Shown: one piece after another, positions 12,563 to 49,768 of the stretch
Position numbering within the stretch: the first letter of the stretch is position 1
How the letters are laid out: every line of letters starts with the position of its first letter
NCBI RefSeq assembly: GCF_015711645.1
Contig: NZ_JABTEX010000003.1
Location: 310,001-374,000, forward strand
Length of the DNA: 64,000 nt
Direction: 5' to 3'
From: Planomonospora sp. ID82291
Lineage (GTDB): Bacteria > Actinomycetota > Actinomycetes > Streptosporangiales > Streptosporangiaceae
Notes under the pieces: model-generated
Seen by the model: only the letters and a program-made list of their open reading frames with translations
Database searches by the model: none
Told to the model about the DNA's origin: nothing
Position numbers and translations under genes: made by a program

Positions 12563-12602
12563 CGCCGCCCCGCCGGCGGGCCCGCCCCCCGGGTACGGCC
12601 CG

Positions 12603-12626
12603 CCGCCGGGAAGCGGTCCCCGGCGG
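12603..12626. terminator. hairpin between alaA and the small membrane protein gene
   Basis: Arms CCGCCGGG and CCCGGCGG (8 bp) with an 8-nt loop lie in the gap between two convergent stop codons. There is no T tract, so support as a bidirectional terminator is moderate. Confidence 0.45.
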
Positions 12627-12657
12627 GAGGCGTCCGGCGGCGGTCATCCGGCCGGCG

Positions 12658-12828
12658 TCAGCCGCGGGCCTTCGAGGAGCGGAAGAGCTTGGCCGCGAAC
12701 GTGGCCACCACGGCCACCAGGCCGATGATCAGGGCCCACTTGAGCAGGCCGAACAGGAAGCCCAGCACCGAGCCGAGCAGGAAGAAGGCGAGCACCACGG
12801 CCGCCACGATCAGCAGAATTCGTCCCAT
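12658..12828 (-). CDS. 56-residue hydrophobic membrane protein
   Basis: A short gene with two hydrophobic segments: MGRILLIVAAVVLAFFLLG (residues 1-19), then VLGFLFGLLKWALIIGLVAV and VATFAAKL, ending in a basic tail FRSSKARG. GGTGGG lies just upstream of the ATG at 12828. Codon use is typical of the genome. It looks like a small membrane protein with two helices separated near the GLLKW lysine. Function unknown; small proteins of this look often modulate a larger membrane partner, but none is adjacent. Confidence 0.7.
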   Translation of the reverse strand: MGRILLIVAAVVLAFFLLGSVLGFLFGLLKWALIIGLVAVVATFAAKLFRSSKARG

Positions 12829-32447: not shown

Positions 32448-33455
32448 TCAGCGCTCCTGCAGCACCTCGGAGACCGGCCGCCGGACGCCCGGCGTGTCGT
32501 CGAAGGTGAAGCCCAACCGCATGATCATCTGCGGGTACTCCCCCGAGCAGAGCTCCTGGCGCAGGAACTCCCGCAGGTGGAACATCTCCAGCGCTTGGGT
32601 GTGGAACGCCGCGCTGACCCCGTAGGCGAAGGCGTGCAGCAGGACGCGCTGCAGCGCCTGCCCCGCGGTGATCCAGGCCTCCCGGGAGTCGCCGGGGGTG
32701 GTCAGCACCGCCACCACCCCGGCGGAGGTCGCGGCGAACTGGTCGGCGGCGTGGCCCCAGGGGTGGCCGCGGGCGTAGTCCCGCTGGGCGAAGAGGGGGT
32801 CGGTCCGGCCGGTCGCCCGGGGATAGGCCTGCGCCGGGACGCCGTCCCTGCGGGAGCTGCCGGGCGGGCGGGCCCAGCGGACCACCTCCAGGCCGGAGAC
32901 CCGGTCCTGGGCCTGCACGTCCTGCGCGGCGCAGGTCAGCGCGGCGAGCACCCGGACCGAGGCCTCCGAGCGGACCGGGGCCAGGCGCGCGCCCTCGGCG
33001 GACGCCTGGGCGACGAGCGCCTCGATCAGGCGCTCCGGCACCGGCAGGTCGGTGAAGCCCGCCCGGTGGGTGCGGCGGCGCTCGATCTGGGCGTGCAGCA
33101 GCCGGGTGTGCTCGTCGGACGGCGCCTGCCCGCCGATCCGGACCGTCGCCAGCAGGCTGGGGCGGTCCGGGTCGGGCAGCACGCGCACCTGCGGCTCGTA
33201 GCCGAGCTTGAGCAGGGTCAGCCGCACGTTCAGCAGGGCGGCGCCGCAGCTGATCAGGAGTTCGCGGCCGGCCGGGTCGCCGACCCGCAGGCCGCGGTCG
33301 GGGTCGGCGTCCAGCCGGATCTCCCCGTCCTCGATCGTGAAGGCCCACGGCTGGGTGTTGTGCACCGACGGCGCGTGCACGGCGGCCTCCACCGCCGTGC
33401 GGAGCGCGAAAGCGGTCTCCTCGGGCGTCTTGCTCCCCACCGGGTGAACGTTCAT
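32448..33455 (-). CDS. Acg-family nitroreductase-like protein (first copy)
   Basis: About 335 residues. VHAPSVHNTQPWAFTIEDGE is the family start (N-T-Q-P-W), LISCGAALLNVRLTLLKLGY and RRRTHRAGFTDLPVPE follow, and AGQALQRVLLHAFAYGVSAAFH closes the FMN-like fold. This is the Acg group (M. tuberculosis Rv2032 type), classic members of the DosR dormancy regulon. They keep a nitroreductase fold, thought to have lost normal FMN catalysis and perhaps to store flavin. ATG at 33455 has GAGGTGCGGAG upstream; an ATG at 33470 is possible. DosR-like boxes lie 89-124 bp upstream. Confidence 0.87.
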   Translation of the reverse strand: MNVHPVGSKTPEETAFALRTAVEAAVHAPSVHNTQPWAFTIEDGEIRLDADPDRGLRVGDPAGRELLISCGAALLNVRLTLLKLGYEPQVRVLPDPDRPSLLATVRIGGQAPSDEHTRLLHAQIERRRTHRAGFTDLPVPERLIEALVAQASAEGARLAPVRSEASVRVLAALTCAAQDVQAQDRVSGLEVVRWARPPGSSRRDGVPAQAYPRATGRTDPLFAQRDYARGHPWGHAADQFAATSAGVVAVLTTPGDSREAWITAGQALQRVLLHAFAYGVSAAFHTQALEMFHLREFLRQELCSGEYPQMIMRLGFTFDDTPGVRRPVSEVLQER

Positions 33456-33543
33456 CTCCGCACCTCGCATCCCGCTCCCGGCCGGCGTCCTCTCGTCGGC
33501 CTGCCTGTGCCTTCAGCATCCCCGGGCGGATCAGGCGGGATAA

Positions 33544-33579
33544 GCGCCGAAGGTCCCCCCGGGGGAGGACCTTGGCAAC
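33544..33579 (-). promoter_or_regulatory. DosR-like box pair upstream of the first Acg gene
   Basis: GCGCCGAAGGTCCC (33544-33557) fits GGGNC-N4-GNCCC at 9 of its 10 non-N positions. AGGACCTTGGCAAC (33566-33579) is a weak second copy, centre 22 bp away. They lie between the cydB stop and the acg start, 89 bp or more upstream of the latter. Confidence 0.6.
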
Positions 33580-33589
33580 CGGCCGGGGG

Positions 33590-34567
<978 letters not shown>

Positions 34568-34577
34568 GGGGGGATCC

Positions 34578-35981
34578 TCAGTAGGAGAGCGCGGGGGCGG
34601 CGCCGGTCCCGGTCTCGGACTCGCCGGAGGGATCGGTCACCCCTTCCACGGGACCGATCTTGATGAACTTGAGCAGCAGCCGGATCTCGATCACCGCGAG
34701 CACCCCGTAGAGCAGGGTGAAGCCGACCAGCGTGGTGGCGACCTCGGCGACGTCCACCCCGGGGGAGACCGCCGAGGCGGTGCTCATGATCCCGTAGACG
34801 GTCCACGGCTGGCGGCCCATCTCGGTGAAGATCCAGCCCATCGAGTTGGCCAGGAACGGCAGGCCGATGCCCAGGACGGCCAGCCGGTAGAACCAGGGGC
34901 TGCGCGGCAGCCGGCCCCGGCGGGTGAGCCAGAGCCCGGTCAGGGCGAGCAGCCCGGCCAGCACGCCGAAGCCGATCATCAGACGGAAGGTCCAGTAGGC
35001 CAGGCCGACGCTCGGCCGGTAGTCGCCGGGGCCGTACAGGGCCTGGTAGCGGGCCTGGATGTCGTTGATGCCCTCGACCTCGCCGTCCAGGGTGTTGGTG
35101 GCCAGCAGGCTGAGGCCGTACGGGATCTGCAGGTTGACGTGGTTGCGGCCGTTCTCCACGTCGCCGACGGCGAACAGCGAGAATCCGGCGGAGCTCTCGT
35201 CCTCCCACAGCGCCTCGGCGGCGGCCATCTTCATCGGCTGCTGCTCGGTCATGATCTGCGCCTGCCAGTGGCCGCTGAAGGCGACCCCGGCCGAGGCGAC
35301 CAGGGCGACGGCCATCGCCAGGCGCGCCGAGGTGCGGAACAGTTCGACGTCCTGCTTCTTGAGCAGCTTCCAGGCGCTGACGCCGGCGACGAACGCGCCG
35401 GCGGTGACGAACGCGCCGAAGATGACGTGCGGGAAGGTGGCCAGGGTGGTGACGTTCGTGAGCACCGCCCAGATGTCGGTGAGCTCCGCGCGGCCGGTCT
35501 CCGGGTTGAGCCGGTAGCCGACCGGGTGCTGCATCCAGGAGTTGGCCGCCAGGATGAAGTAGGCCGACAGGTTGGTGCCGATCGCGGCCAGCCAGATCGT
35601 CATCAGGTGGAGCCGGGGCGGGAGCCGGTCCCAGCCGAAGATCCACAGTCCGAGGAAGGTGGACTCCAGGAAGAAGGCCATCAGCCCTTCCATGGCCAGC
35701 GGGGCACCGAACACGTCGCCGACGAAGCGGGAGTAGTCACTCCAGTTCATGCCGAACTGGAACTCCTGCACGATGCCGGTGACCACCCCCATCGCGAAGT
35801 TGATCAGGAAGAGCTTGCCCCAGAACTTCGTCAGCCGCAGGTAGGCCGGCTTCTTCGTCCGGTGCCAGGCGGTCTGCAGGCCCGCGACGATGATCGACAA
35901 CCCGATCGTCAGCGGCACGAAGAGGAAGTGGTAGACCGTGGTGATCCCGAATTGCCAGCGGGAGAGGTCCAAGACGTCCAT
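34578..35981 (-). CDS. cydA: cytochrome bd oxidase subunit I
   Basis: 467 residues. Haem ligand H18 is in TTVYHFLFVPLTIGLS. GLMAFFLESTFLGLW has the conserved glutamate E99, GRQPWTVYG is the quinol-site motif, and the insertion after it is short (short Q-loop type). VLFWGVI-type loops are absent, as expected. It makes the haem b558/b595/d subunit of the high-affinity oxidase. GACGGAGTCCCC precedes the ATG. Two DosR-like boxes lie 63-98 bp upstream, inside the tail of the next gene, so the operon is probably hypoxia-induced. Confidence 0.97.
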   Translation of the reverse strand: MDVLDLSRWQFGITTVYHFLFVPLTIGLSIIVAGLQTAWHRTKKPAYLRLTKFWGKLFLINFAMGVVTGIVQEFQFGMNWSDYSRFVGDVFGAPLAMEGLMAFFLESTFLGLWIFGWDRLPPRLHLMTIWLAAIGTNLSAYFILAANSWMQHPVGYRLNPETGRAELTDIWAVLTNVTTLATFPHVIFGAFVTAGAFVAGVSAWKLLKKQDVELFRTSARLAMAVALVASAGVAFSGHWQAQIMTEQQPMKMAAAEALWEDESSAGFSLFAVGDVENGRNHVNLQIPYGLSLLATNTLDGEVEGINDIQARYQALYGPGDYRPSVGLAYWTFRLMIGFGVLAGLLALTGLWLTRRGRLPRSPWFYRLAVLGIGLPFLANSMGWIFTEMGRQPWTVYGIMSTASAVSPGVDVAEVATTLVGFTLLYGVLAVIEIRLLLKFIKIGPVEGVTDPSGESETGTGAAPALSY

Positions 35982-36033: not shown

Positions 36034-37236
36034 TCACTCCGTAGGGTCTGCCGTCCCCCTCCGCAGGGACCTTGGTCCCGCCCCCACCATCCCGACCAGC
36101 GTGGTCCCGGTGACGGCCGCCACCGTGGCGGCCATCGCCACCGCGCCGAGCATCCCGATGAGCACCACGAGCGGCGGCGACTGCCCCGGCTGCCAGAGCG
36201 GGGTGGTCACGAGGCCGAAGGCCGCCAGGCCCATGCACCAGCCCCCGGTGCTCGCCACGATCCACCGCCACGCCCCGGCGACGCGGCCGCGCAGCACGCG
36301 CCACTGGAACAGCCCCATCGACACCAGCAGGGCCGGGCCCATGACGGCCAGCAGCGGCCAGGGGACGGCCGTCAGCCCCTCGCCGAGCAGCACGGGGACC
36401 GAGCCGATCGTCCAGGCGACCGTGGCCCCGGCCGCGGTCGCCCGCACCCACGTGCGCGTCGGCACCGAGGGCAGCGCGCCGCGCAGCGCGTACGCCTGGC
36501 CGAGGCCGAGCAGGGCGCCCTCCCCCGCGCCCGCCAGGACCAGCAGGAAGACCTGGGCCAGCGGCCCGAGCCGCGCGGAGCCGACCACCAGGGCCGCGAC
36601 CACGGCGGGCAGGGCGAAACCGGCGATCTCCCCGGCCAGGGTGGCCAGGAACCAGCGCCGCCACAGGCCGCGCGCGCCCCCCGCGCCCGGCCCGCCGGGA
36701 ACCGGCCGCTCCAGGCGGATCCGGATCGCCACCCCGTCGCGGGCCCAGGCGGGCGGGGCCGCCCCCGCGGGCCGGCCGGGGGCCGACGCCATCTCCAGCA
36801 GGGTCTCGGCCACCCGGTGGACGTCCGCGGACACGCTCGCGACGCCCTCCCACTCGCGTCCGCGCAGGCGCACGCGGACCGGGGCGCCGCCGGGCCCGGA
36901 CAGGTTGCGCCACCACATCCGGTCGCGGTGGCTGACCAGCAGCAGCTCGCCGTCCCTGGCCACGTAGTTCGCGGGCACCGTGATCCGCCTGCCGGTCCTG
37001 CGGCCCTCCACCGTCACCAGGGCGACCGAGGCGCTCAGCAGGTCGTGCAGGGGGGAGCGGAGCAGACGGCGGACGAACGGGTTCACCAGGCGGTTCTGGA
37101 CCGCGCGCAGCGGGCTCCGCGTCCCGGGGCCCGCTGCGGGGCCCGGCCGGGCCTGCGGGCCGTCCACGACTCCGGGCGGCGCGTATGCGGGCGGCGCGTG
37201 CGAACCGTCCCCGGTCCGCGGCCGGTGCATCACCAT
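36034..37236 (-). CDS. deazaflavin (F420)-type nitroreductase-like domain fused to a six-helix membrane domain
   Basis: 400 residues. Residues about 45-150 (NPFVRRLLRSPLHDLLSASV, LVTVEGRRTGRRITVPANYV, GELLLVSHRDRMWWRNLSG) are the split-barrel of the Ddn/PF04075 deazaflavin-dependent nitroreductase family. From about residue 185 there are six or so TM helices (FLATLAGEIAGFALPAVVAA onward), with no recognised family. The two halves in one chain are unusual. It sits between cydA and the XRE-PPOX gene. Its 3' end carries the cydA operator boxes and its 5' end faces three more, so it is part of the hypoxia island; a quinone or nitro-compound reductase role at the membrane is inferred. Confidence 0.75.
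   Translation of the reverse strand: MVMHRPRTGDGSHAPPAYAPPGVVDGPQARPGPAAGPGTRSPLRAVQNRLVNPFVRRLLRSPLHDLLSASVALVTVEGRRTGRRITVPANYVARDGELLLVSHRDRMWWRNLSGPGGAPVRVRLRGREWEGVASVSADVHRVAETLLEMASAPGRPAGAAPPAWARDGVAIRIRLERPVPGGPGAGGARGLWRRWFLATLAGEIAGFALPAVVAALVVGSARLGPLAQVFLLVLAGAGEGALLGLGQAYALRGALPSVPTRTWVRATAAGATVAWTIGSVPVLLGEGLTAVPWPLLAVMGPALLVSMGLFQWRVLRGRVAGAWRWIVASTGGWCMGLAAFGLVTTPLWQPGQSPPLVVLIGMLGAVAMAATVAAVTGTTLVGMVGAGPRSLRRGTADPTE
36044..36079 (-). promoter_or_regulatory. DosR-like box pair upstream of cydAB
   Basis: GGGTCTGCCGTCCC (36044-36057) and GGGACCTTGGTCCC (36066-36079, perfect palindrome) both fit GGGNC-N4-GNCCC. Centres are 22 bp apart. They sit in the last codons and 3' flank of the upstream gene, 63-98 bp from the cydA ATG. 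Confidence 0.8.
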
Positions 37237-37288
37237 GTCGTCCTCCTACCGTCTCCCCCATTCGACCGTCTGCCGGTGTCCGGCACAG

Positions 37289-37341
37289 GGGCCGAAAGAC
37301 CCTGCCGGGCGGGACCTCCGGCCCGCAGGGGCCCGGGTCCC
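37289..37341. promoter_or_regulatory. three DosR-like boxes in the divergent gap
   Basis: GGGCCGAAAGACCC (37289), GGGACCTCCGGCCC (37311) and GGGGCCCGGGTCCC (37328) all fit GGGNC-N4-GNCCC. The first two centres are 22 bp apart, the third 17 bp further. The gap separates the Ddn-fusion gene (minus) from the XRE-PPOX gene (plus), so both may be controlled. Confidence 0.8.
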
Positions 37342-37502: not shown

Positions 37503-38177
37503 ATGACCGAACGCATCACGGCCCCCGGCGATCTCGGCCGCCGGGTCGCGGCCAGGCGTGAGGCCCTCGGCCTCAGCAGGGAACGGCTGGCCGAGCGGGC
37601 CGGGATCGACCCCGGTTACCTCGCCTATCTGGAGGAGGCCGCCGCCTCCCCCGCCAGTGAGACCGTGCAGCGGCTGGCCGCCGCCCTGCAGACCGGCCCG
37701 GAGGAACTGCTGGGGGGCACGGTCGACCTGCCGCCCGGACGCGGCCCGGCCGGCGCCGAGCCGTCGCTGGACGAGCTCGACCCCAACGAGTGCCTGCACC
37801 TGATCTTCCCCGGCGGTGTGGGCCGGGTCGCCTTCGACGACGGCGGCGGGCCGACGATCCTGCCGGTCAACTACGTGCTGCACGACAACGCGGTGGTCTT
37901 CCGCACCGCGGCCGAGGGCCCGTTCAGCCGGCACCTGCGCACCGGCGTCCCCGGGGTCGAGTTCAAGGTCGCCTTCGAGGTCGACCGGATCGACGACCCC
38001 AACCGGGAGGGCTGGAGCGTGCTCATCCGGGGCGGCGCGCACCTGGTCTCCTCCCCCGACGAGCAGGCGGCCGTGGCGGCGGCGGGCGTGCAGTCCTGGG
38101 CGGGCGGCACGCGCGACCTCTACATCAAGATCGTTCCCAGTGAGGTCTCCGGCCGCCGGATCCGGCACCGCTCGTGA
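37503..38177 (+). CDS. XRE helix-turn-helix fused to a PPOX-fold domain
   Basis: 224 residues. Residues 8-62 form an XRE HTH (GRRVAARREALGLSRERLAE, GIDPGYLAYLEEAAASP). After a linker, residues 95-220 are a flavin/haem-binding split barrel (GRVAFDDGGGPTILPVNYVL, HDNAVVFRTAAEGPFSRHLR) that resembles the separate PPOX gene at 39016 (P-V-N-Y-V-L shared). It would be a DNA-binding protein that responds to a bound redox cofactor. It starts with ATG at 37503 and GGGAG upstream. It lies next to devR under three DosR-like boxes. Confidence 0.85.
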   Translation: MTERITAPGDLGRRVAARREALGLSRERLAERAGIDPGYLAYLEEAAASPASETVQRLAAALQTGPEELLGGTVDLPPGRGPAGAEPSLDELDPNECLHLIFPGGVGRVAFDDGGGPTILPVNYVLHDNAVVFRTAAEGPFSRHLRTGVPGVEFKVAFEVDRIDDPNREGWSVLIRGGAHLVSSPDEQAAVAAAGVQSWAGGTRDLYIKIVPSEVSGRRIRHRS

Positions 38178-38316
38178 CCGTCCGGCGCGGGATCCGGCGA
38201 TCGTGCGGGCACCCGCGTGCCGATGACGCCCCGATCCGTGTTTTGATGGTCTCCCGCAGGACAGGGGTGACCGGAAGGCTCGGTTGCCGGCGGTCGAGGT
38301 GAGGAGAGCTGACGAC

Positions 38317-38985
38317 ATGGATGTGATTCGCGTGGTCCTCGTGGACGACCACGAGGTGGTACGGCGCGGCGTCGCGGCCCTCCTCGACTCCGAGGACGAC
38401 ATCCAGGTGGTCGGCGAGGCCGGGACCGCCGAGTCGGCCGTCACCCGCATCACCGCGCTCCAGCCGGACGTGGCGGTGCTGGACGTGCGCCTGCCCGACG
38501 GGAGCGGCGTCGACGTGTGCCGCGAGGTCCGCTCCCGCCTGCCCGGACTCGCCTGCCTGATGCTGACCTCGTTCGCCGACGACGACGCGTTGTTCGATTC
38601 GGTGATGGCGGGCGCCTCGGGATACGTCCTCAAGCAGATCCACGGCTCCGACCTGGTCGGCGCCGTGCGCACCGTGGCCTCGGGCCAGTCGCTGCTCGAC
38701 CCGCAGACGACCGCGTCGATGCTGGCGCGCCTGCGCGACCAGGAGAGCCGCAAGGACCCGCTGTCGGCCCTGTCGGCGCAGGAGCGGCAGATCCTCGACC
38801 TGATCGGCGAGGGGCTGACCAACCGGCAGATCGGCGAGCGGATGTTCCTGGCGGAGAAGACCGTCAAGAACTACGTCTCCAACCTGCTCGGCAAGCTCGA
38901 CATGCAGCGCCGCACCCAGGCCGCGGCTTTGGTCACCCGGCTCAAGGCCGAACGCGGCGAGCGGGGAGACCTTCGTCCCTGGTGA
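38317..38985 (+). CDS. devR: DevR/DosR-like response regulator
   Basis: 222 residues. Receiver domain: VVLVDDHEVVRRGVAALLDS, phospho-acceptor D56 in VAVLDVRLPDGSG, LMLTSFADDDALFDSVMAGA, GYVLKQIHGSDL. The NarL/LuxR C-terminal HTH is LSAQERQILDLIGEGLTNRQ, then IGERMFLAEKTVKNYVSNLL, the recognition helix K-T-V-K-N-Y-V-S characteristic of DevR. It is the master activator of hypoxic dormancy genes in mycobacteria. ATG at 38317 has GAGGAG upstream. The kinase partner devS is 550 bp away on the other strand, not in an operon. No DosR-like box is visible before its own start. Confidence 0.93.
   Translation: MDVIRVVLVDDHEVVRRGVAALLDSEDDIQVVGEAGTAESAVTRITALQPDVAVLDVRLPDGSGVDVCREVRSRLPGLACLMLTSFADDDALFDSVMAGASGYVLKQIHGSDLVGAVRTVASGQSLLDPQTTASMLARLRDQESRKDPLSALSAQERQILDLIGEGLTNRQIGERMFLAEKTVKNYVSNLLGKLDMQRRTQAAALVTRLKAERGERGDLRPW
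38966..38979 (+). promoter_or_regulatory. DosR-like box upstream of the PPOX gene
   Basis: GAGACCTTCGTCCC has one mismatch to GGGNC-N4-GNCCC. It overlaps the last codons of devR and is 37-50 bp before the start of the next gene, a normal activator position. No 22-bp partner was found. Confidence 0.6.
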
Positions 38986-39015: not shown

Positions 39016-39447
39016 ATGAAAGTCGACTCCGCCGGGCTGCGGGTGCTCACCCGTGCCGAGTGCATCCAGTTGCTCGCCTCCACTCCCCTGGGGCGCATCG
39101 TCTTCACCGACCGGGCGCTGCCTGCGATCCAGCCGGTCAACTACGTGCTGGACGGAGACGACCTGGTGATCCGCACCGGCTCCGGCTCCAAGCTGGCCTC
39201 CGCGGTGCGCGACACCATCGTGGCGCTGGAGGCCGACGCGTTCGACCCGGACGGCCGCACCGGATGGTCGGTGACCGTCGTCGGGCAGGCGCGGGCCGTC
39301 CGGGAGGCCCACGAGGTCAGCCGGCTGGCACACCTCCCGCTGGCCCCGTGGACCTCCCGGAGCCCCGGTTCCCCGGAGGCCCAGGACCACTACATCGTCC
39401 TGCCGATCGAGCAGGTCTCCGGCCGCCGGGTCGACACGCACCCCTGA
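39016..39447 (+). CDS. PPOX-fold (FMN/haem-binding) small protein of the dormancy group
   Basis: 143 residues. LTRAECIQLLASTPLGRIVF, TDRALPAIQPVNYVLDGDDL, VIRTGSGSKLASAVRDTIVA and FDPDGRTGWSVTVVGQARAV are the split-barrel of the pyridoxamine-phosphate-oxidase-like proteins that make up a large share of DosR regulons. It is likely a flavin, F420 or haem protein of unknown reaction. It has the same core as the barrel of the XRE fusion. A DosR-like box lies just upstream. Confidence 0.85.
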   Translation: MKVDSAGLRVLTRAECIQLLASTPLGRIVFTDRALPAIQPVNYVLDGDDLVIRTGSGSKLASAVRDTIVALEADAFDPDGRTGWSVTVVGQARAVREAHEVSRLAHLPLAPWTSRSPGSPEAQDHYIVLPIEQVSGRRVDTHP

Positions 39448-39534: not shown

Positions 39535-41235
39535 TCACCCCCGGTCCAGGGGGGCCTGCCAGCGCAGGCGGCTGCCCCCTCCTTCGGCGCGCTCGGCGGT
39601 GAAGGAGCCGCCCAGGCGCTCGGCGCGCTCGGCCAGGTTGCGCAGTCCGCTGCGCCGCCCGCCCTCGGGGATGCCGACGCCGTTGTCGCCCACCTCCAGC
39701 AGCAGCGTGCCGTCGCGCACCTCCACCAGCACCTGCGCCCTGCTCGCCCGGGCGTGGCGGGCGACGTTCGACAGCGCCTCACGCAGCACCGCCCGCAGCT
39801 GCTCCCCCACCTCCTCGGGCACCGTGTTGTCCAGCGGCCCCTCCATCCGGATGCCGGGCATGAAGCCGAGCTGCTCGCGGGCGGCCTCCACCAGCTCCGT
39901 CACCCGGCCGCGCAGCGTGCGGGCCGGACCGTGCTGCGGCGGCGACTGCAGCGCGAAGATGGTGGAGCGGATCTCCTTGATGGTCTGGTCCAGCTCGTCC
40001 ACGGCGTGCTGCAGCCGCGCCGACGCGGCGGGGTTCTCGACCATGCGGACCGTGCTCATCAGCGTCATGGCCACCGCGAACAGCCGCTGGATGACGACGT
40101 CGTGCAGGTCCTTGGCGATGCGGTCGCGGTCCTCCAGCAGGCCCAGCCGCTCGGCGTCGCGGCGCGCGTCGGCCAGCTCCAGCGCGACCGCCGCCTGCCC
40201 GCCCAGGGACTCGGCCATCCGCAGGTCCGCCTCGTTGAACGGCAGCGCCCCGCTCCGCTTGGCCAGGACGAGCACGCCGCGGGACGCGTCCACCCCGCCC
40301 AGCGGCACCGCGATGGCCGGGCCCAGCGGCACCCCCTCCAGATGCGGCGGATACCCGGCGAACTCCTGCAGGTCCGGCGTGCTCTGCGGCCGGCCGCTGC
40401 GCAGCGCCGCCCCGGCCAGCGACCGGTCCGTCCGCATGTCCCGCGCGCGCAGCAGCTCCTCGCCGAGCCCTTCGACGATCTCGATCCGCACCATGTCCTC
40501 GTGCGGGAAGCTCACCATCGCCGTATCGGCCCCGGTCAGCTCCCGGGCGCGCCGGGCCATGATGGTGAGCACCTCCCCCGGGTCGTCGCCGGACAGCAGG
40601 CTGGTGGTCACCTCCGACGAGACCCGCAGCCAGTCCTCCCTGCGCCGGGTCTCCTCGTACAGCCGGGCGTTCTCGATCGCCACGCCCGCGGCGGCGGCCA
40701 GCGCGTTGACGACCGCCTCGTCCTCCTCCTCGAACGCCCCGCCCCCGGCCTTCTCGGTCAGGTAGAGGTTGCCGAACACCTCGTCGCGCACCCGGATGGG
40801 CACGCCCAGGAAGCTGCGCATCGGCGGATGGCCCGCGGGGAAACCGTAGGACTCGGGGTGCTCGGCCAGGTCGGCGATCCGCAGCGTCTGCGGATCCTTG
40901 ATCAGCAGGCCGAGCAGCCCCTTGCCGTGCGGCCAGTGCTCGATCTGCGCGATCTCCTCCTCGGTGACCCCCACCGGGATGAAGCGCTCGAGGGTGCCGC
41001 CCTCGCCGATCACGCCGAGCGCCGCGTACCGGGCGTCGACCAGCTTGGCCGCGGCCTCGGTGATCCGCCGCAGCACGGTCTCCAGGTCCAGGTCGCTGCC
41101 GACCGAGACCACCGCCTCCAGCAGCGCGTGCACCCGGTCGCGGGTGGCGAGCACCGTGTCCAGCCGGTCCTGCAGCTCCGACAGCAGATCGTCCAGCCGC
41201 ATCTGCGGAATCAGAGGTCTCTCGCCCACGCCCAT
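39535..41235 (-). CDS. devS: DevS/DosS-like GAF sensor histidine kinase
   Basis: 566 residues. GAF-A (about 40-195) has H136 in GHPPMRSFLGVPIRVRDEVF, the position of the haem-binding histidine of mycobacterial DosS. GAF-B runs to about 370. The HisKA_3 motif is DLHDVVIQRLFAV with phospho-acceptor H378. The ATPase domain carries EALSNVARHARAS and GDNGVGIP. It would sense oxygen, NO or CO, or redox state, and phosphorylate DevR. ATG at 41235 has GGAGGG upstream. It lies after the arc terminator and convergent with the PPOX gene. Confidence 0.92.
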   Translation of the reverse strand: MGVGERPLIPQMRLDDLLSELQDRLDTVLATRDRVHALLEAVVSVGSDLDLETVLRRITEAAAKLVDARYAALGVIGEGGTLERFIPVGVTEEEIAQIEHWPHGKGLLGLLIKDPQTLRIADLAEHPESYGFPAGHPPMRSFLGVPIRVRDEVFGNLYLTEKAGGGAFEEEDEAVVNALAAAAGVAIENARLYEETRRREDWLRVSSEVTTSLLSGDDPGEVLTIMARRARELTGADTAMVSFPHEDMVRIEIVEGLGEELLRARDMRTDRSLAGAALRSGRPQSTPDLQEFAGYPPHLEGVPLGPAIAVPLGGVDASRGVLVLAKRSGALPFNEADLRMAESLGGQAAVALELADARRDAERLGLLEDRDRIAKDLHDVVIQRLFAVAMTLMSTVRMVENPAASARLQHAVDELDQTIKEIRSTIFALQSPPQHGPARTLRGRVTELVEAAREQLGFMPGIRMEGPLDNTVPEEVGEQLRAVLREALSNVARHARASRAQVLVEVRDGTLLLEVGDNGVGIPEGGRRSGLRNLAERAERLGGSFTAERAEGGGSRLRWQAPLDRG

Positions 41236-41290
41236 CCCTCCACCACGCCCCGGCTCACCCCCCAAGCTTCCCATCCGGCGCCGGAGGGTC

Positions 41291-41325
41291 AAAAAAGAGC
41301 ACCCGCCCCGACGGGGCGGATGCTC
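41291..41325 (-). terminator. intrinsic terminator of the arcDABC operon
   Basis: On the minus strand GAGCATCCGCCCC-GTC-GGGGCGGGTGCTC (13-base arms, one mismatch) is followed by six T. It is 32 bp after the arcC stop. This is a textbook intrinsic terminator, rare in such GC-rich DNA. Confidence 0.9.
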
Positions 41326-41356
41326 TGTCACGGACCCCCTCCTGGTCCGCCGGGTC

Positions 41357-42292
41357 TCACAGCGTGCTGGTCAGCGGCCAGGTCGCGTTGGGCGTGATGA
41401 CGGTGCCCGCGGTCCCCTCCAGGATCCGCACGGCGTCGTCCAGCCGGCCGATGGCCGCCATGTCGCCGGTCGTCTCGACGAACCGGCAGGCCGCCTCGAC
41501 CTTCGGCCCCATCGAGCCGGCCGGGAAGTCCTCGGCGCGCAGCTCGTGCGGGGTGGTGTGGCCGATCTCCTCCTGCTGCGGGGTGCCGAAGCCCCGCATG
41601 ACCCGGGGCACGTCGGTGAGGATCAGGAAGGCGTCGCACTCCAGCGCCTCGGCGAGCATGGAGCCGGTCAGGTCCTTGTCGATGACCGCCTCGATGCCCT
41701 GCAGGCGGCCCTTGTCGTTGCGGATGACCGGGATGCCGCCGCCGCCCGCGCAGACCACCACGACGCCGTCGCGGACCAGCCCGCGGATCAGCCGGGTCTC
41801 CACCACCCGCTGCGGGCGCGGCGAGGGCACGACCCTGCGCCAGTGGGGGCCGTCGGGCTTGACCGTCCAGCCGTTCTCCGCGGCCAGCCGCTCGGCCTCG
41901 GCCCGGTCGTAGACCTGGCCGACGAACTTGGTCGGGTCGTCGAAGGCCGGGTCCACCGCGGAGACCAGCGTCTGGTTGACCATCGACATGACCTGGCGGC
42001 CCGGCAGCGCGTTCTGCAGCGCCTGGAGCATCCAGTAGCCGATCATGCCCTGGGTCTGGGCGCCCAGCGTGTCGAACGGGTACGGCCGGCTCAGGTTGGA
42101 GTCGCCGGCGCTCTGCAGCGCCAGCATGCCCACCTGCGGGCCGTTGCCGTGCGTGATGATCAGTTCGTGGCGGGCCGCGACCTCGGCCAGCGTCTTGACG
42201 GCGACGGCCACGTTGGCGATCTGGACGTCGGCGTCGGGGCTCTCCCCGCGCCTCATCAGTGCGTTGCCCCCCAGGGCGACGAGAACGCGCAT
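41357..42292 (-). CDS. arcC: carbamate kinase
   Basis: 311 residues. MRVLVALGGNALMRRGESPD, LIITHGNGPQVGMLALQS, VCAGGGGIPVIRND and IEAVIDKDLTGSMLAEAL are the amino-acid-kinase motifs of carbamate kinases. It makes ATP from carbamoyl phosphate and ADP as the last step of the arginine deiminase pathway. It is the last gene of arcDABC, starting three bases after the arcB stop with GGGGAG inside the arcB end. Confidence 0.96.
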   Translation of the reverse strand: MRVLVALGGNALMRRGESPDADVQIANVAVAVKTLAEVAARHELIITHGNGPQVGMLALQSAGDSNLSRPYPFDTLGAQTQGMIGYWMLQALQNALPGRQVMSMVNQTLVSAVDPAFDDPTKFVGQVYDRAEAERLAAENGWTVKPDGPHWRRVVPSPRPQRVVETRLIRGLVRDGVVVVCAGGGGIPVIRNDKGRLQGIEAVIDKDLTGSMLAEALECDAFLILTDVPRVMRGFGTPQQEEIGHTTPHELRAEDFPAGSMGPKVEAACRFVETTGDMAAIGRLDDAVRILEGTAGTVITPNATWPLTSTL

Positions 42293-42295
42293 CGC

Positions 42296-43300
42296 TCAGC
42301 TCCCCAGGGTGGCGACCATGACGGCCTTGATCGTGTGCAGCCGGTTCTCGGCCTGGTCGAAGACGATGGACCGCGGCGACTCGAAGACCTCCTCGGTCAC
42401 CTCCAGCGCCTCCAGGCCGGTCTTGGCGTACAGGTCCTCGCCGACCTGGGTCTCCCGGTTGTGGAAGGCCGGCAGGCAGTGCAGGAACTTCACCGCCGGG
42501 TTGCCGGTCGCCTTCACCAGCTCGGCGTTGACCTGGTACGGCAGCAGCAGCCCGATGCGCTCGTCCCACACCTCCTTCGGCTCTCCCATCGAGACCCACA
42601 CGTCGGTGTAGAGGAAGTCGACGCCCCGCACGCCCCCGGCGACGTCGGCGGTGAGGGTGAGCCGGGCGCCGGTCTGCTCGGCGAGCTCGCGCGCCGGGCG
42701 CACCACCGTCTCCTCGTCCGGCCACAGCGCCTCGGGCGCGACGATCCGCACGTCCATGCCGAGCATCGCGCCGGTGACCAGCAGCGAGCTGCCGACGTTG
42801 TTGCGGGCGTCGCCGAGGTAGGCGTAGGAGATCTCCCCCAGCGGCTTGTCGCTGTGCTCGCGCATGGTGAGCACGTCGGCGAGCATCTGCGTGGGGTGCC
42901 ACTCGTCGGTGAGGCCGTTCCAGACCGGGACCCCGGAGTAGGCGGCCAGCTCCTCCACGTGCGCCTGCCTGCGGCCGCGGAACTCGATGCCGTCGTACAT
43001 CCGGCCGAGCACCCGTGCGGTGTCCTTGACCGACTCCTTGTGGCCCATCTGCGAGCCGCTCGGGTCGAGGTAGGTGACGTGCGCGCCCTGGTCGTGGGCG
43101 GCGACCTCGAACGCGCAGCGGGTGCGGGTGGAGGTCTTCTCGAAGATCAGCGCGATGTTCTTGCCCGTCAGCCGAGGCTGCTCGGTGCCGGCGTACTTGG
43201 CGGCCTTGAGGTCGGCCGCCAGATCGATCAGGTAGCGGATCTCCTGCGGAGTGAAGTCGAGTTCCTTCAGGAAACTGCGGTGACGCAGGTTGAACGCCAT
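42296..43300 (-). CDS. arcB: ornithine carbamoyltransferase, catabolic
   Basis: 334 residues. Carbamoyl-phosphate site [60 protein letters not shown], and [20 protein letters not shown] (H-C-L-P). It splits citrulline into ornithine and carbamoyl phosphate. The operon position between arcA and arcC marks it as the catabolic enzyme rather than biosynthetic ArgF. AGGGGAAG precedes the ATG. Confidence 0.95.
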
Positions 43301-43347
43301 TGTTCTTCCCCTGTGGTCGTGTTGCGGATTCGGTGAGCGGCGGACGG

Positions 43348-44598
43348 TCAGATGCCGTCGCGCTCGATCGGGCAGCTCATGCAGCGCGGTCCGCCGCGTC
43401 CCCGGCCCAGTTCGCTGCCGCGGATGGTGATGACCTCGATGCCGTTGGCGCGCAGGTAGTTGTTGGTGGTGGTGTTGCGCTCGTAGGCCACGACCACGCC
43501 CGGCTCGATGGCCAGCACGTTGCAGCCGTCGTCCCACTGCTCGCGCTCGGCGGCGTGCACGTCCTGGGTGGCGGTCAGCACCCGGATGTCGTCCAGGTCC
43601 AGCGCCCGTGCGATCGTCCGGTGCATGTCCTCCGGAGCGTGATCGGTGATCTTGAGTTCCTTCTCGTTGTCCCCCGGTTCGATCGTGTAGGACGGCAGCA
43701 TGCCGAGTCCGGCGTACTTGGTGAACGTCCCCTCGTCGACCTGCGTCATAACCGTGTCCAGGTGCATGAACGCGCGCGCCTTCGGCATGTTCAGCGCCAC
43801 GATCCGGTTGGCCGAGCCCTCGGCGAACAGCCGGTGCGCGAGCATCTCCACGGCCTGGGGCTGGGTGCGCTCGCTCATCCCCACCAGGACCGCGCCGCGG
43901 CCGATGACCAGCACGTCGCCGCCCTCGACGGTGGCCGGGGCCGCGGCCATGCCGGGCATCCACACGTGGTAGCCGTTCTCCACACCGGGCCGGTCGTAGC
44001 CGCCGGCGAACATCGGGTGGTAGCGGTAGAGCGCCTCGTAGTTGACGGTCTCGCGCCGGCGGGCCTTCTTGCGCATCGCGTTGATCGAGACGCCGTCGTA
44101 GATCCAGCACGAGGTGTCGCGGGTGAACAGGTGGTTGGGCAGCGGCGGCAGGACGAAGCCGTCGGTGTCCAGCGTGCGGAACGCCACCGAGTTGCCCGGC
44201 GCGCAGCCGTACTCCATGATCTCCCGCTTGGTGATGCCGCCGGTGAGGAAGCGCGCCAGCGTGGCGGAGTCCATCGCGTCGAGCGTGTTGCGGATGGCGT
44301 CGGTGGCCAGCGGCCCGAACACGCGCTCGTCGATGATGCCGTCGAGGATGTGCTTGCGGCCTTCGAGGATCGAGACCGTGTCGCGGAGCAGGTCGGTCAG
44401 GAGGTGGACGGTGATGCCGCGGTCCCGCAGGACCTGCTGCCACTCCAGGTGCTCCTCCACCGCGCGCTGCACCCACAGCACGTCGTCGAAGAGGAACTCG
44501 TCCTTGTTGGAGGGGGTCAGCCGCTTCAGCGAGAGCTCGGGCTTGTGCAGAACCACCTGTCGCAGGCGGCCCACCTCGGAGTCGACGTGGAAGGTCAT
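43348..44598 (-). CDS. arcA: arginine deiminase
   Basis: 416 residues. Active-site elements: [64 protein letters not shown], and the C-terminal [15 protein letters not shown] with catalytic cysteine C406. It converts arginine to citrulline and ammonia. AGGAGAACTGCG precedes the ATG, which overlaps the arcD stop (ATGA), so the two are translationally coupled. Confidence 0.97.
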
Positions 44599-46034
44599 CG
44601 CAGTTCTCCTGTCATTCTCGTGGTCTCCCTGGGGCCGTACTCGCCGCGCGAGGCCTTGACCCAGATGTAGACGGGGATGCCCGCCAGCAGCATGAGGGTG
44701 CCCTGGAAGACGGCGTCGTTGCCGGCACCGAAGATCATCCAGAAGCTGAACAGCAGGGCCACGATCGCCATGGTCATGTTCCAGGCCAGGCCCTTGCGCG
44801 CCGCCGCCTGCCGCTCCCCGGTGGCCAGCCAGAACAACTGGGCGGCGGCGGAGAACAGGTAGGGCACGACCGTGGTGAAGGCGGCCAGCAGCAGGATGGT
44901 GTTGAAGGCGTTCTCCGCGGCGAAGGCCAGGACGAACGTGATCGAGGTCAGCGCCGTGCCGACGATGATGCCGACCCACGGCACGTTGCCGTTCCGCATC
45001 CGGGTGAACATCTTCGGGAACAGGCCGTCACGGGCGGCGGCCATCGGCATCTCGGCGACCAGCAGGGTCCATCCGTTCAGCGCGCCGATGCCGGAGATGA
45101 TCGCGAAGGCGGCCATCACCACGCCCCAGGCGCTGCCGCCGAACATCGCGTTGATCGCGTCGGCGAAGGGCGCCGTGGATTCCACCAGCTTCTCGTGGGG
45201 GACGGTGCCGAAGACCGCGACGGTGCCGAGCATGTAGAGCACCGCGCAGGCCAGGGTGCCGTAGATGCTGGCGCGGCCGATGTTGCGCTCGGGGTCCTTG
45301 ACCTTCTCCGCGACGATGCTGACGCTCTCCACTCCGGAGTAGGCGAACAGCACCAGCGCGGCCGACACCGAGATCGCCCCGATCCACGAGCCGTCCGTGG
45401 CGTTGAAGGGACCGAAGTTGTCCGCCTGGATGAAGAACAGGCCGACGATCGCGACGAAGATCAGCGGGGCGAACTTCAAGATGGTGGTGACCAGCTGGAA
45501 GAGGCCCATCTTGGTGACGCCGGCGAGGTTGATGAGCGCCGGGATCCACAGGCCCGTCAGTCCGATGACCACCTGGGCGGGGACGCTGCTCCAGTCCAGT
45601 CCGAACGCGGCGTCGGCGAAGTAGACGACGTAGCCGACCCAGGCGAAAGCGATACCGGCGTTGCCCGCCCAGGCGGTGATCCAGAAGGACCAGGCGTTGA
45701 GGAACCCGGGGAACTCCCCGAAGCCCTCACGGGCGTAGGCGTACGGCCCGCCGGAGGCCGGGATGCGCCGGCCGAGCCGTCCGAAGACGACGGCGAGCGC
45801 GAGCGCGCCGAGGGTGACGATCCCGAACGCCAGGATGCTCACGGTCCCGAACGCCGCCAGCGAGGCCGGGAGCAGGAAGATCCCGGTGCCGACGATGTTC
45901 CCGACGACCAGCGCCGTCGCCTGGGACAGCCCCAGGCGGGCGCCGCCTTCTGCGGGCGCGGACGGCGTGCCCTCCCGGGCCGGCTGTTCTGTGGCGAGTG
46001 GGCCCTGCGGGCGCCCGCCTGCTTCCTCTTTCAT
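44595..46034 (-). CDS. arcD: arginine/ornithine antiporter (APC family)
   Basis: 479 residues, 12-13 TM helices. [20 protein letters not shown] is the APC first-helix motif (G-x-G-I-F), [20 protein letters not shown] the second, and [20 protein letters not shown] the TM6 substrate motif. In the arc operon it would exchange external arginine for internal ornithine. The long hydrophilic N-terminus is typical of actinobacterial members. ATG at 46034 has AGGGAA upstream. First gene of the operon. Confidence 0.93.
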
Positions 46035-46211
46035 CTGTGCTTTCCCTAGGTGGTGACCTGGCCGCATGCCGGTCGGCAGCGGTCTCCCCACGGCATGGGC
46101 CGCCGGAGCGGCCCGGGTCTGCTTGCGCACCGAGAGAGGCGACCGGACGGGGTCCGGGCCTCCTGCGGGAGGGGTCGTCCTTATTTGACCGTTTGTGGCG
46201 GGCCGTTCACC

Positions 46212-46247
46212 CAGCCGAACGGCCCTGACCCTCAGGACCTCCGTCCT
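46212..46247. promoter_or_regulatory. DosR-like box pair in the arcD / acg gap
   Basis: AGGACCTCCGTCCT (46234-46247; perfect outer dyad) and CAGCCGAACGGCCC (46212-46225) are imperfect fits to GGGNC-N4-GNCCC, with centres 22 bp apart. They lie about 180-210 bp before arcD and 160 bp before the second acg gene. Support is moderate. Confidence 0.5.
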
Positions 46248-46314
46248 TTCTGTGCCTTTTCCATGCCTTTTGGCGCCCGTCTTGACCCCCGGCGGCGCGG
46301 CGCGGCGGTTTCCC

Positions 46315-46350
46315 GGTCCCGAGGTCCCCTCCCACGGGGACCTTCGGCCC
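46315..46350 (+). promoter_or_regulatory. DosR-like box pair upstream of the second Acg gene
   Basis: GGGACCTTCGGCCC (46337-46350) is a perfect fit and GGTCCCGAGGTCCC (46315-46328) has one mismatch to GGGNC-N4-GNCCC. Centres are 22 bp apart. The nearer box is 55 bp before the ATG. Confidence 0.8.
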
Positions 46351-46404
46351 TGCCCGCAGAGCCGTACGGTGGGCAGCCTCAGGAGGGACCAAGGAGGTTC
46401 CGCC

Positions 46405-47367
46405 ATGCTCAGTCCACTCGCCACCCATGCCGGCCTGCGGCGGCTCGTCACCGCGGCGAGCGCCGCCCCCTCCGTGCTCAACACCCAGCCCTGGCGCTTC
46501 GGCGTCCACCGTCGCGAGCACATCGAGCTCCACGCCGACCTGGACCGCTGGCTGCCGGTGGCCGACCCCCGCGGCCGGTCGCTCCACATCAGCTGCGGCG
46601 CGGCCCTGTTCAACCTGCGCCTGGCCCTGCGCGTCGCCGGCTGGCGGCCGGTCTCCTGGCCGCTGCCGGCGATCGGCGACGACGCGTCCTCCCTGCTCGC
46701 CGCGGTGCGGCCGGTGCGGGCCCCGCTCGCCTCGGCGGCCGAACACGAACTGTACGCCGCCATCCAGGACCGCCGCACCAACCGCCAGCCCTATTCCGAC
46801 CTCCCCGTCCCCCCGGCGGTCCTGGCGGAACTGGCCGCGGCGGTCCGGCTGGAGGGGGCCGACCTGGTCCCGGTGGGCGGCCCGGCGGGCGCCGCGCTGC
46901 TGGACGAGGTCGCCATGGCCGAGGAGCGGCTCGCCAGCGACGCCGAGTACCGCACGGAGCTCGCCCGGTGGACGAACGGCGGGCCGCGCTGCGACGGGCT
47001 CCCCGCCTACGTCCAGGGTCCGCGCCCCGACGGCGTCTCGGTCCCCGTCCGCAGCTTCGCCCGGACGGGTGCCGAGACCGCCCGCTTCGAGGCGCGTCCG
47101 CAGCTGGTGGTCGTGACCACCTCCGGAGACGGCCCGCAGGACTGGCTCCGGGCCGGCCAGGCGCTGCAGCGCATGCTGCTGGTCGCCACCCTGCACGGCG
47201 TGTCGGCCTCGTTCCTCAACCAGCCGCTGGACCTGCGCGACATGCGCCACCACACCGACCCGCAGCACCGGCGCGGCCACCCCCAGATGATCGTCCGGAT
47301 CGGCTACGGGCCCGCCGTGCCGCGTGCCCCCCGGCGGCCGGTGCCCGAGGTCCTCAGCGCCGCGTGA
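46405..47367 (+). CDS. Acg-family nitroreductase-like protein (second copy)
   Basis: 320 residues. VTAASAAPSVLNTQPWRFGV, HISCGAALFNLRLALRVAGW, RRTNRQPYSDLPVPPAVLAE and GQALQRMLLVATLHGVSASF align block by block with the first Acg protein at 32448. Proposed flavin-linked role as for that family. AAGGAGG is at ideal spacing before the ATG. It is divergent from arcD and carries two DosR-like boxes upstream. Confidence 0.88.
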   Translation: MLSPLATHAGLRRLVTAASAAPSVLNTQPWRFGVHRREHIELHADLDRWLPVADPRGRSLHISCGAALFNLRLALRVAGWRPVSWPLPAIGDDASSLLAAVRPVRAPLASAAEHELYAAIQDRRTNRQPYSDLPVPPAVLAELAAAVRLEGADLVPVGGPAGAALLDEVAMAEERLASDAEYRTELARWTNGGPRCDGLPAYVQGPRPDGVSVPVRSFARTGAETARFEARPQLVVVTTSGDGPQDWLRAGQALQRMLLVATLHGVSASFLNQPLDLRDMRHHTDPQHRRGHPQMIVRIGYGPAVPRAPRRPVPEVLSAA

Positions 47368-47406
47368 GCGGCGGGGCGGACGGGCGCGGGCCGCGCCGGT
47401 CCGTTC

Positions 47407-47442
47407 GTGACGAAGGTCCCGCCCTCCGGTGACGTCCGTCTC
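47407..47442 (+). promoter_or_regulatory. DosR-like box pair upstream of pflBA
   Basis: GTGACGAAGGTCCC (47407-47420, one mismatch) and GTGACGTCCGTCTC (47429-47442, two mismatches to GGGNC-N4-GNCCC) have centres 22 bp apart and end 64 bp before the pflB ATG. Confidence 0.65.
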
Positions 47443-47506
47443 CGGCCTGCACCTTCACCGGGGGGCGAACATAGACTGTAGACGTAGCCAAGCAGGAGGT
47501 TCCACC

Positions 47507-49768
47507 ATGAGCACGACGACCGAGACCGGACGAACGGCAGAGCAGGGCGCCTGGCGCGGCTTCCAGCCGGGCATCTGGTGCTCCGCCATCGACGTGCGGG
47601 ACTTCGTGCGCGCCAACTACACCCCCTACACCGGGGACGAGGGCTTCCTGGCCGGCCCGACGGAGCGCACGCTGGCCGTCTGGGAGAAGCTGACCGCGAT
47701 GTTCCCCGCCGAGCGGGAGCGCGGCATCTACGACGCCGACGTCTCGACGCCGTCCACGATCACTTCGCACGCCCCCGGCTATGTCGACCGGGAGAACGAG
47801 CTGGTCGTCGGCCTGCAGACCGACGCCCCCCTGAAGCGGGCGATCATGCCGAACGGCGGGCTGCGGATGGTCGAGAACGGCCTGGCGGCCTACGGGTACA
47901 CGCTCGACCCCCAGGTGAAGGAGATCTTCACCAAGTACCGCAAGACCCACAACGCCGGCGTGTTCGACGCCTACACCCCGCGGGTGCGCGCGGCCCGCCG
48001 CTCGCACATCCTCACCGGCCTGCCCGACGCCTACGGCCGCGGCCGGATCATCGGCGACTACCGGCGGGTTGCCCTTTACGGTGTAGATCAGCTGATCGCG
48101 GCCAAGAAGGCCGAGCTGCGCACCCTGGACGAGGTGCCCTCCACCGCGGACGTCATCCGCGACCGGGAGGAGCTGGCCGAGCAGATCCGCGCGCTGGGCG
48201 AGCTCAAGGAGATGGCCGCCTCCTACGGCTTCGACGTCTCCGGCCCCGCCGCGACCGCGCACGAGGCGATCCAGTGGCTGTACTTCGGCTACCTCGCCGC
48301 GGTCAAGGAGCAGAACGGCGCCGCCATGTCGCTGGGCCGCACCTCCACCTTCCTGGACGTCTACCTCCAGCGCGACCTGGAGGAGGGCACGATCGACGAG
48401 GTCCGGGCCCAGGAGCTCGTCGACGACTTCGTGATCAAGCTGCGGATCGTCCGCTTCCTGCGCACCCCCGAGTACGACCAGCTCTTCTCCGGCGACCCCA
48501 CCTGGGTCACCGAGTCGATCGGCGGCATGAGCCGCGACGGCCGCACCCTGGTCACCAAGACGAGCTTCCGGTTCCTGCAGACGCTGCACAACCTCGGGCC
48601 CGCACCCGAGCCCAACCTCACCGTGCTCTGGTCGCCCGACCTGCCGGAGGGCTTCAAGCGCTTCTGCGCGCGGACCTCCATCGAGACCAGCTCGATCCAG
48701 TACGAGAACGACGAGCTGCTCCGGCCGGAGTACGGCGACGACACCGCCATCGCCTGCTGCGTCTCCGCGATGCCGGTCGGCCGGCAGATGCAGTTCTTCG
48801 GCGCCCGGGTGAACCTGGCCAAGACCCTGCTGTACGCGATCAACGGCGGTCGCGACGAGATCACCGGTGAGCAGATCGGCCCCGCGCTCCCGCCGCTGAC
48901 CGGCGACCGGCTCTCCTACGACGAGGTCGCCGGCGCGCTGGACAAGATGATGGACTGGCTGGCCGAGACCTACGTCGACGCGCTCAACGTCATCCACTAC
49001 ATGCACGACAAGTACGCCTACGAGCGCGTCGAGATGGCGCTGCACGACTACCCGGTCAAGCGCACCCTCGCCTGCGGCATCGCCGGCCTGTCGGTGGCCG
49101 CCGACAGCCTGTCGGCCATCAAGTACGGCGGCGTGCGGGTGGTGCGCGACGAGACCGGCCTGGCGGTCGACTACGTCGTCGAGGGCGACTACCCCGCCTT
49201 CGGCAACGACGACGACCGGGTCGACGGCATCGCCGCCGGGCTGGTGCGGAGCTTCATGGACAAGATCCGCACCTACCCGTCCTACCGCGGCGCCGAGCAC
49301 ACCCAGTCGGTGCTGACCATCACCTCCAACGTGGTGTACGGCAAGCACACCGGCAACACCCCCGACGGCCGCCGCAAGGGCGAGCCGTTCGCCCCCGGCG
49401 CCAACCCGATGAACGGCCGCGACCGGCACGGCATGGTCGCCTCCGCGCTCTCGGTCGCCAAGCTCCCCTACGACCAGGCCAGGGACGGCATCTCGCTGAC
49501 CAACACGGTGACGCCGTCCGGGCTGGGCCGTACCGCCGAGGAGCGGATCGCCAACCTCGCCGGGGTGCTCGACGGCTACTTCGACGGCGGCGGCTTCCAC
49601 ATGAACGTCAACGTCCTCAACCGCGAGATCCTGCTCGACGCGATGGAGCACCCGGAGAAGTACCCGCAGCTCACCATCCGCGTCTCCGGCTACGCCGTCA
49701 ACTTCGTCCGCCTGACCAGAGAGCAGCAGCTCGATGTCCTCAACCGCACCTTCCACGGCTCGGTCTGA
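47507..49768 (+). CDS. pflB: pyruvate formate-lyase
   Basis: 753 residues, full length. Catalytic cysteine pair C417-C418 in [20 protein letters not shown]. The glycyl-radical loop [20 protein letters not shown] has G728 near the C-terminus. It cleaves pyruvate with CoA to acetyl-CoA and formate without oxygen. The radical is destroyed by oxygen, so use must be strictly micro- or anaerobic. AGGAGG precedes the ATG. It is followed by its activase, overlapping by 35 bp, and preceded by DosR-like boxes. Confidence 0.97.

Follow-up and report, generated by a model that had tools for sequence, protein, structure and literature searches.

A Ddn-type split barrel joined to a six-helix membrane domain beside cytochrome bd genes in an actinobacterial dormancy cluster

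Described systems and the present locus

Electron transfer from F420H2 to a quinone or a phenazine of the membrane is known from the multi-subunit F420H2 dehydrogenases Fpo and Fqo, which are large complex-I-like assemblies with FeS clusters; the overall reaction is the same as the one that we propose below for a single protein. Whether bacteria truly use F420H2 as an electron donor for respiration is still under study, and the published case is mainly that of the deazaflavin-dependent nitroreductase Ddn (Rv3547, FDOR-A1), a single-domain peripheral protein. Its F420 contacts, as listed by Cellitti et al., include R54, T56, P63, W88 and N91 (PMC3267046). According to Lee et al. 2020, Ddn reduces menaquinone, and the F420H2-driven oxygen uptake of M. 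smegmatis membranes requires cytochrome bd (PMC7032734).

Mycobacterial FDOR-AA enzymes are, like the protein described here, F420-type split barrels reported to be membrane-associated; the available part of the source proposes a lipid role and makes no mention of a multi-helix domain, and by this description they stand apart (PMC8498797). As for the genomic setting, the OsdR/DevR (DosR) dormancy regulon brings together, as do the fusion loci, a response regulator, a GAF kinase, universal stress proteins, an Acg nitroreductase, PNPOx proteins, fermentation genes and box-like sites, whereas Table 1 of that study holds no such fusion among the OsdR targets (PMC5069765).

In this study, we analysed a window of 64,000 nucleotides from Planomonospora sp. 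ID82291 (contig NZ_JABTEX010000003.1, positions 310,001 to 374,000). One of its genes encodes a protein that shares with Ddn the split barrel, the GR[KR][ST]G hairpin and equivalents of P63, W88 and N91 (PMC3267046), as well as a membrane location and a link to cytochrome bd (PMC7032734), but that differs from it in carrying the barrel covalently on six transmembrane (TM) helices. Our literature search, which reached few subscription papers, found no description of an FDOR fused to a multi-helix domain. With a barrel that is covalent with a membrane protein, next to cytochrome bd in a hypoxia/dormancy cluster, the question of F420H2 respiration becomes directly testable in soil actinobacteria that are harmless.

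Architecture of the fusion protein

The fusion gene (36034-37236) lies on the minus strand, which the initial annotation had left unstated. It is conserved in relatives and encodes 400 residues, with zero internal stops and the codon-position bias of actinobacteria. We could confirm that a reductase barrel is fused here to a multi-helix membrane domain, and the protein is almost certainly an FDOR-A-type barrel joined to a six-TM domain. The N-terminal half is Ddn-like as had been claimed, but the barrel does not start at residue 1: it is preceded by a low-complexity, Pro/Gly/Ala-rich segment (residues 1-43; 37108-37236, minus strand), which is not conserved in alignments and is probably disordered. 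The FDOR-A/Ddn-type split β-barrel spans residues ~44-177 (36706-37107, minus strand), and the six-TM domain, computed as three two-helix repeats with an N-in/C-in topology, residues ~191-386 (36079-36666, minus strand).

The match of the N-terminal half to PF04075 (F420H2_quin_red), over residues 66-136, is a narrow pass at 22.6 bits for a curated cut-off of 22, and the barrels of the reversed fusions and of the f6 fusions score under this cut-off. With TIGR00026 the window barrel obtains 25.3 bits, under the cut-off of 46.35; all fusion barrels (17/17) match this model at E<=0.1. A PHMMER search of the PDB with the single fusion protein reached Ddn at only E ~0.8, so that a profile was needed: with the profile built from the 17 barrels, Ddn ranks first (E 9.8e-7) and is followed mostly by other FDOR-A enzymes. 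The structure prediction of the N-terminus, which had been suggested as a check, likewise returned a split barrel. The strands of the barrel-only AlphaFold2 model (mean pLDDT 60, strands ~70-84) follow the order of a six-strand split barrel, and the top Foldseek match of this model is Ddn 3r5l (E 1.2e-6; VIA Z 9.5, rmsd 3.5 over 103 residues). Haem- and FMN-binding split barrels reach equally high structural Z (9-11, VIA) against this model; an identity as a PNPOx-type or haem barrel was set aside, despite the high Z to haem proteins, because the profile and Foldseek both put Ddn first. The full-length prediction is poor (pLDDT 49.7) because it was made from two sequences only, the window protein and one relative. 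Its Foldseek matches (GPCRs, proteorhodopsin) are meaningless. In both models a helix is predicted ahead of the barrel, where Ddn has its amphipathic N-terminal helix, but with pLDDT <50 there.

The equivalents of Ddn R54, T56, P63, W88 and N91 in the fusion are R79, T81, P88, W108 and N111. Among the 17 fusions, these positions hold R in 13/17, S/T in 17/17, P in 16/17, W in 17/17 and N in 16/17, and the contacts so kept are those to the tail, ribityl and phosphate of F420. By alignment, a GRRTG hairpin (residues 78-82; 36991-37005, minus strand) corresponds to Ddn G53-G57, holder of the F420 glutamate tail, and the stretch R106-x-W-W-R-N111 (36904-36921, minus strand) includes the W88 and N91 equivalents together with a fusion-specific Arg/Lys. 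This residue, two positions ahead of the Trp, occurs in 16/17 fusions against 1/9 stand-alone barrels, and we suggest that it may take over the phosphate contact of Ddn K79. Indeed, the post-β3 loop that bears K79 in Ddn is ~5 residues shorter in the fusions, where neither a K79 equivalent nor a kept equivalent of R60 was found. Helix D of Ddn, with the substrate tyrosines Y130, Y133 and Y136, is variable or deleted in the fusions and wholly absent in L018, so that the pocket must have another construction on its acceptor side. Since both of these Ddn-defining features, the K79 loop and the tyrosine helix, are missing, the fusion barrel lies within the FDOR-A superfamily yet is not a Ddn orthologue. 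The F420-gripping positions rank among the most conserved columns of the barrel in both fusion orders; the F420 site is largely kept, and we infer from these residues that the barrel binds F420.

The C-terminal ~195 residues form six hydrophobic helices, whose flanking charges clearly follow the positive-inside rule. The mean number of Lys/Arg is 1.4 at the N-terminal end, 2.8 in loop 2-3, 2.4 in loop 4-5 and 1.1 at the C-terminal end, and 0.4, 0.4 and 0.1 in the other loops. Both ends of the domain are thus inside, and because the number of helices is even, the barrel can be cytosolic, where F420 is, in either fusion order. Comparison of consecutive two-helix units by hhalign gave probabilities of 97% (E 1.6e-11), 91% and 85%, which indicates that a diverged helical hairpin is repeated three times in the domain. 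Residues W195, E203, G206, E239, Q247, W263, T267, Q311, L315, W325 and W333 are near-invariant in 30 membrane domains. The two glutamates, E203 in TM1 (36628-36630, minus strand) and E239 in TM2 (36520-36522, minus strand), are each present in 28/30 sequences and form a buried pair located in the first repeat only. Unlike Fpo and Fqo, compared by description, the fusion is one polypeptide, and its membrane domain has no Cys or His conserved across the 30 sequences, which makes haem ligation unlikely; we recognised in it neither a motif of a quinone site nor haem ligands or other redox residues.

The claim that the six TM helices belong to no known family is borne out. In Pfam and NCBIfam the membrane domain finds no fitting model (a few weak single-member matches concern unrelated families) and no known transporter or channel family, and it has no match among PDB sequences; it is uncatalogued in these libraries. 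The domain is matched in 13/396 genomes sampled, spread across the phylum, and mostly in stand-alone proteins that lack the F420 barrel; it is therefore not bound to serve as a quinone site. Two different families each hold a stand-alone six-TM gene (L067:3101-4303 and L070:9099-10186) with, no more than ~10 bp behind it, the gene of a PNPOx-type split barrel (PF12900, E 1.6e-17 and 1.3e-20), and these pairs are a second kind of split barrel paired with the same membrane domain. Its repeated pairing with split-barrel redox domains in actinobacteria offers a route to the function of this domain. A divergent relative of the TM domain was also detected in genome G609 (L086, E 9.5e-11); on the opposite strand, ~0.6 kb off, lies the gene of a Ddn-like barrel.

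Recurrence and genomic context

The barrel-TM order is found in 14 proteins, 12 from Streptosporangiaceae (including that of the window) and 2 from another family. The reverse order, TM-barrel, is found in 3 proteins: L052 and L059, each from another family, and L084, from another class. In the tree of the TM domain, forward and reverse fusions lie on either side of a branch supported at 100/97. The tree of the barrels gives a less clear picture, as the forward f6 barrels and L026 cluster with two reversed barrels (97/97). The relative from Planobispora takensis (Streptosporangiaceae) is ~62-67% identical over the aligned part. Copies L022 and L029 (genome G145) and L024 (genome G042) are likely broken by frameshifts or reflect poor assembly: the L022 sequence contains an N, and the G042 copy is frameshifted at its C-terminus. 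In L058, the contig ends exactly where the barrel would start. A TM-barrel fusion from another actinobacterial class (L091:10763-11836) has a universal stress protein gene directly after it (about 11836-12690).

In the window, the initial annotation had placed the fusion beside bd oxidase genes. Both are indeed found directly downstream on the same minus strand: cydA, for cytochrome bd subunit I (34578-35981; PF01654, E 2.7e-180), lies 53 bp downstream of the fusion, and cydB, for subunit II (33590-34567; PF02322, E 1.8e-108), comes next. Further on, an Acg/Rv3131-family FMN nitroreductase is encoded at 32448-33470 on the minus strand (NF047509, 298 bits for a cut-off of 199). Upstream of the fusion, domain searches identified a divergent gene for an XRE-type HTH and PNPOx split-barrel protein (37503-38177, plus strand), a LuxR-type response regulator (38284-38985, plus strand), a second PNPOx split-barrel protein (39016-39447, plus strand), a GAF-GAF histidine kinase with a DosS-like layout (39535-41331, minus strand) and an anaerobic block with carbamate kinase, arginine deiminase, a nitroreductase and pyruvate formate-lyase (41357-49768). 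Taken together, the regulator, the kinase, the arginine-deiminase pathway, the nitroreductases, pyruvate formate-lyase and cydAB make the window an anaerobic/dormancy island. Another GAF histidine kinase, which includes a HisKA domain, is encoded in the same island (56517-57812); a search for anti-phage defence gave no match.

What the relatives share around the fusion is a dormancy/hypoxia cluster. A universal stress protein domain lies within 11 kb of the fusion in 8/12 forward-fusion genomes, against 0.65 expected (P ~2e-8, computed from genome counts with kinship ignored). Response regulators 82-85% identical to that of the window are found near the fusions of several genomes, and the f6 fusions are near either a universal stress protein (L071) or the response regulator/kinase/Acg nitroreductase set (L072). 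The position of cydAB is more variable. The genes adjoin the fusion directly in the window genome only, among the fusion loci compared; in G135 and G117, both of one other genus, ~14 kb separates them from the fusion, and they adjoin the same set of regulator, kinase and nitroreductase. In G152, cydA is on the fusion contig at a distance of 67 kb, and in the remaining genomes cydAB is elsewhere. We therefore rejected cydAB as a conserved direct neighbour. The initial reading of the fusion thus holds for the barrel, its largely kept F420 site, the covalent TM domain and the presence of cydAB, and neither of the two results that would have spoken against it, a missing barrel or a missing F420 site, was obtained. 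The direct passage of electrons to menaquinone that it put forward is a hypothesis, strengthened by the published work on Ddn (PMC7032734) and by the reverse-order fusions; against it stand a membrane domain in which no haem ligand or quinone motif was recognised, the loss of the K79 loop and the tyrosine helix, and an adjacency to cydAB seen in this genome only. It is very likely that the fusion takes part in the function of the dormancy cluster.

Proposed function and regulation

The genome encodes FbiC (525 bits, cut-off 374) and, nearby, a CofD/FbiA-type gene, so that the host very probably makes F420; it also encodes a separate strong PF04075 protein. Because Ddn reduces menaquinone and the F420H2-driven oxygen uptake depends on cytochrome bd (PMC7032734), we favour for the fusion the role of an integral-membrane F420H2:menaquinone reductase feeding the bd oxidase at low oxygen, a mechanism that, as a whole, we regard as evenly balanced between right and wrong. 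The cytosolic split barrel would bind F420H2 in a Ddn-type groove. The six-helix domain would keep it at the membrane surface and form the pocket that receives a lipid-soluble acceptor, and would so stand in for two helices of Ddn, the one with the tyrosines and the amphipathic one at the N-terminus. By analogy with Ddn, this acceptor would be a quinone, most likely menaquinone, and the menaquinol would be oxidised by the cytochrome bd encoded downstream, F420H2 being in this way respired at low oxygen. A barrel-membrane fusion in a low-oxygen survival cluster beside cytochrome bd may thus feed F420 electrons straight into respiration. A bolder version, in which a single-polypeptide F420H2:menaquinone oxidoreductase with an undescribed quinone-binding fold, occurring in both orders, is dedicated to bd respiration in hypoxic dormancy and possibly moves protons via its glutamates, is tentative and rather doubtful.

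The fusion could instead be a membrane-anchored F420-dependent reductase of a lipid or terpenoid other than menaquinone, which the six-helix domain would present to the barrel. The membrane-associated mycobacterial FDOR-AA enzymes, for which a lipid role has been proposed, speak for such an activity (PMC8498797), and as the substrate-side tyrosines of Ddn are missing, the acceptor may well differ. We nevertheless hold this to be unlikely: beside the fusions examined, whose common neighbours are stress, fermentation and respiration genes, we recognised no genes of lipid synthesis, and of their acceptors, purified FDORs reduce quinones at the highest rates (PMC5449967). That the barrel has turned to FMN or haem, as several relatives of the same fold use, would agree with the structural Z of such barrels and with the loss of the K79 loop, but it is very unlikely given that the profile and Foldseek rank the F420-dependent Ddn first, that the F420-tail contacts R54, T56 and N91 are kept and that the host has F420 biosynthesis genes.

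It is also conceivable, if somewhat improbable, that the protein is a redox sensor, its barrel reading F420/F420H2 or another flavin and gating a six-helix transporter, channel or signalling partner in hypoxia. The membrane domain does occur alone, beside universal stress proteins and in two cases immediately ahead of a split-barrel gene of another family, the PNPOx type; moreover, its buried glutamates E203 and E239 would suit transport and the catalytic-side residues of Ddn are lost. A sensor fits less well with the conservation of the F420-gripping columns in both orders and with a membrane domain that matches no known transporter or channel family. Finally, the two domains might be joined by chance or in a degenerate gene and share no function. 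The broken copies (those of G145 and the C-terminally frameshifted one of G042) could point to this, but it is scarcely credible and is already contradicted by the conservation data, namely 14 conserved proteins in which each domain has invariant residues, and 3 more in reverse order.

Regarding regulation, sites resembling the OsdR box consensus AGGGCCGATCGGCCCT (PMC5069765) are found at several promoter positions in the window. An OsdR/DosR-box-like dyad, GGGGCCGAAAGACCCT (37288-37303), lies 52 bp before the fusion start and is singled out on a positional basis only; another, AGGGACCTTGGTCCCG (36065-36080), lies within the 3′ end of the fusion gene, 84 bp before cydA, and a weak box-like site (33543-33558) precedes the Acg nitroreductase by 73 bp. 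At a score of 10, the window holds 3 boxes for 3.9 expected, which is not above chance, and we rejected an enrichment. The promoter positions, judged after the fact, are at most suggestive of OsdR-type regulation. The OsdR/DosR-like two-component system encoded nearby probably controls cydAB together with the fusion. A strong OsdR-box-like site is also present at 46336-46351, within the anaerobic block.
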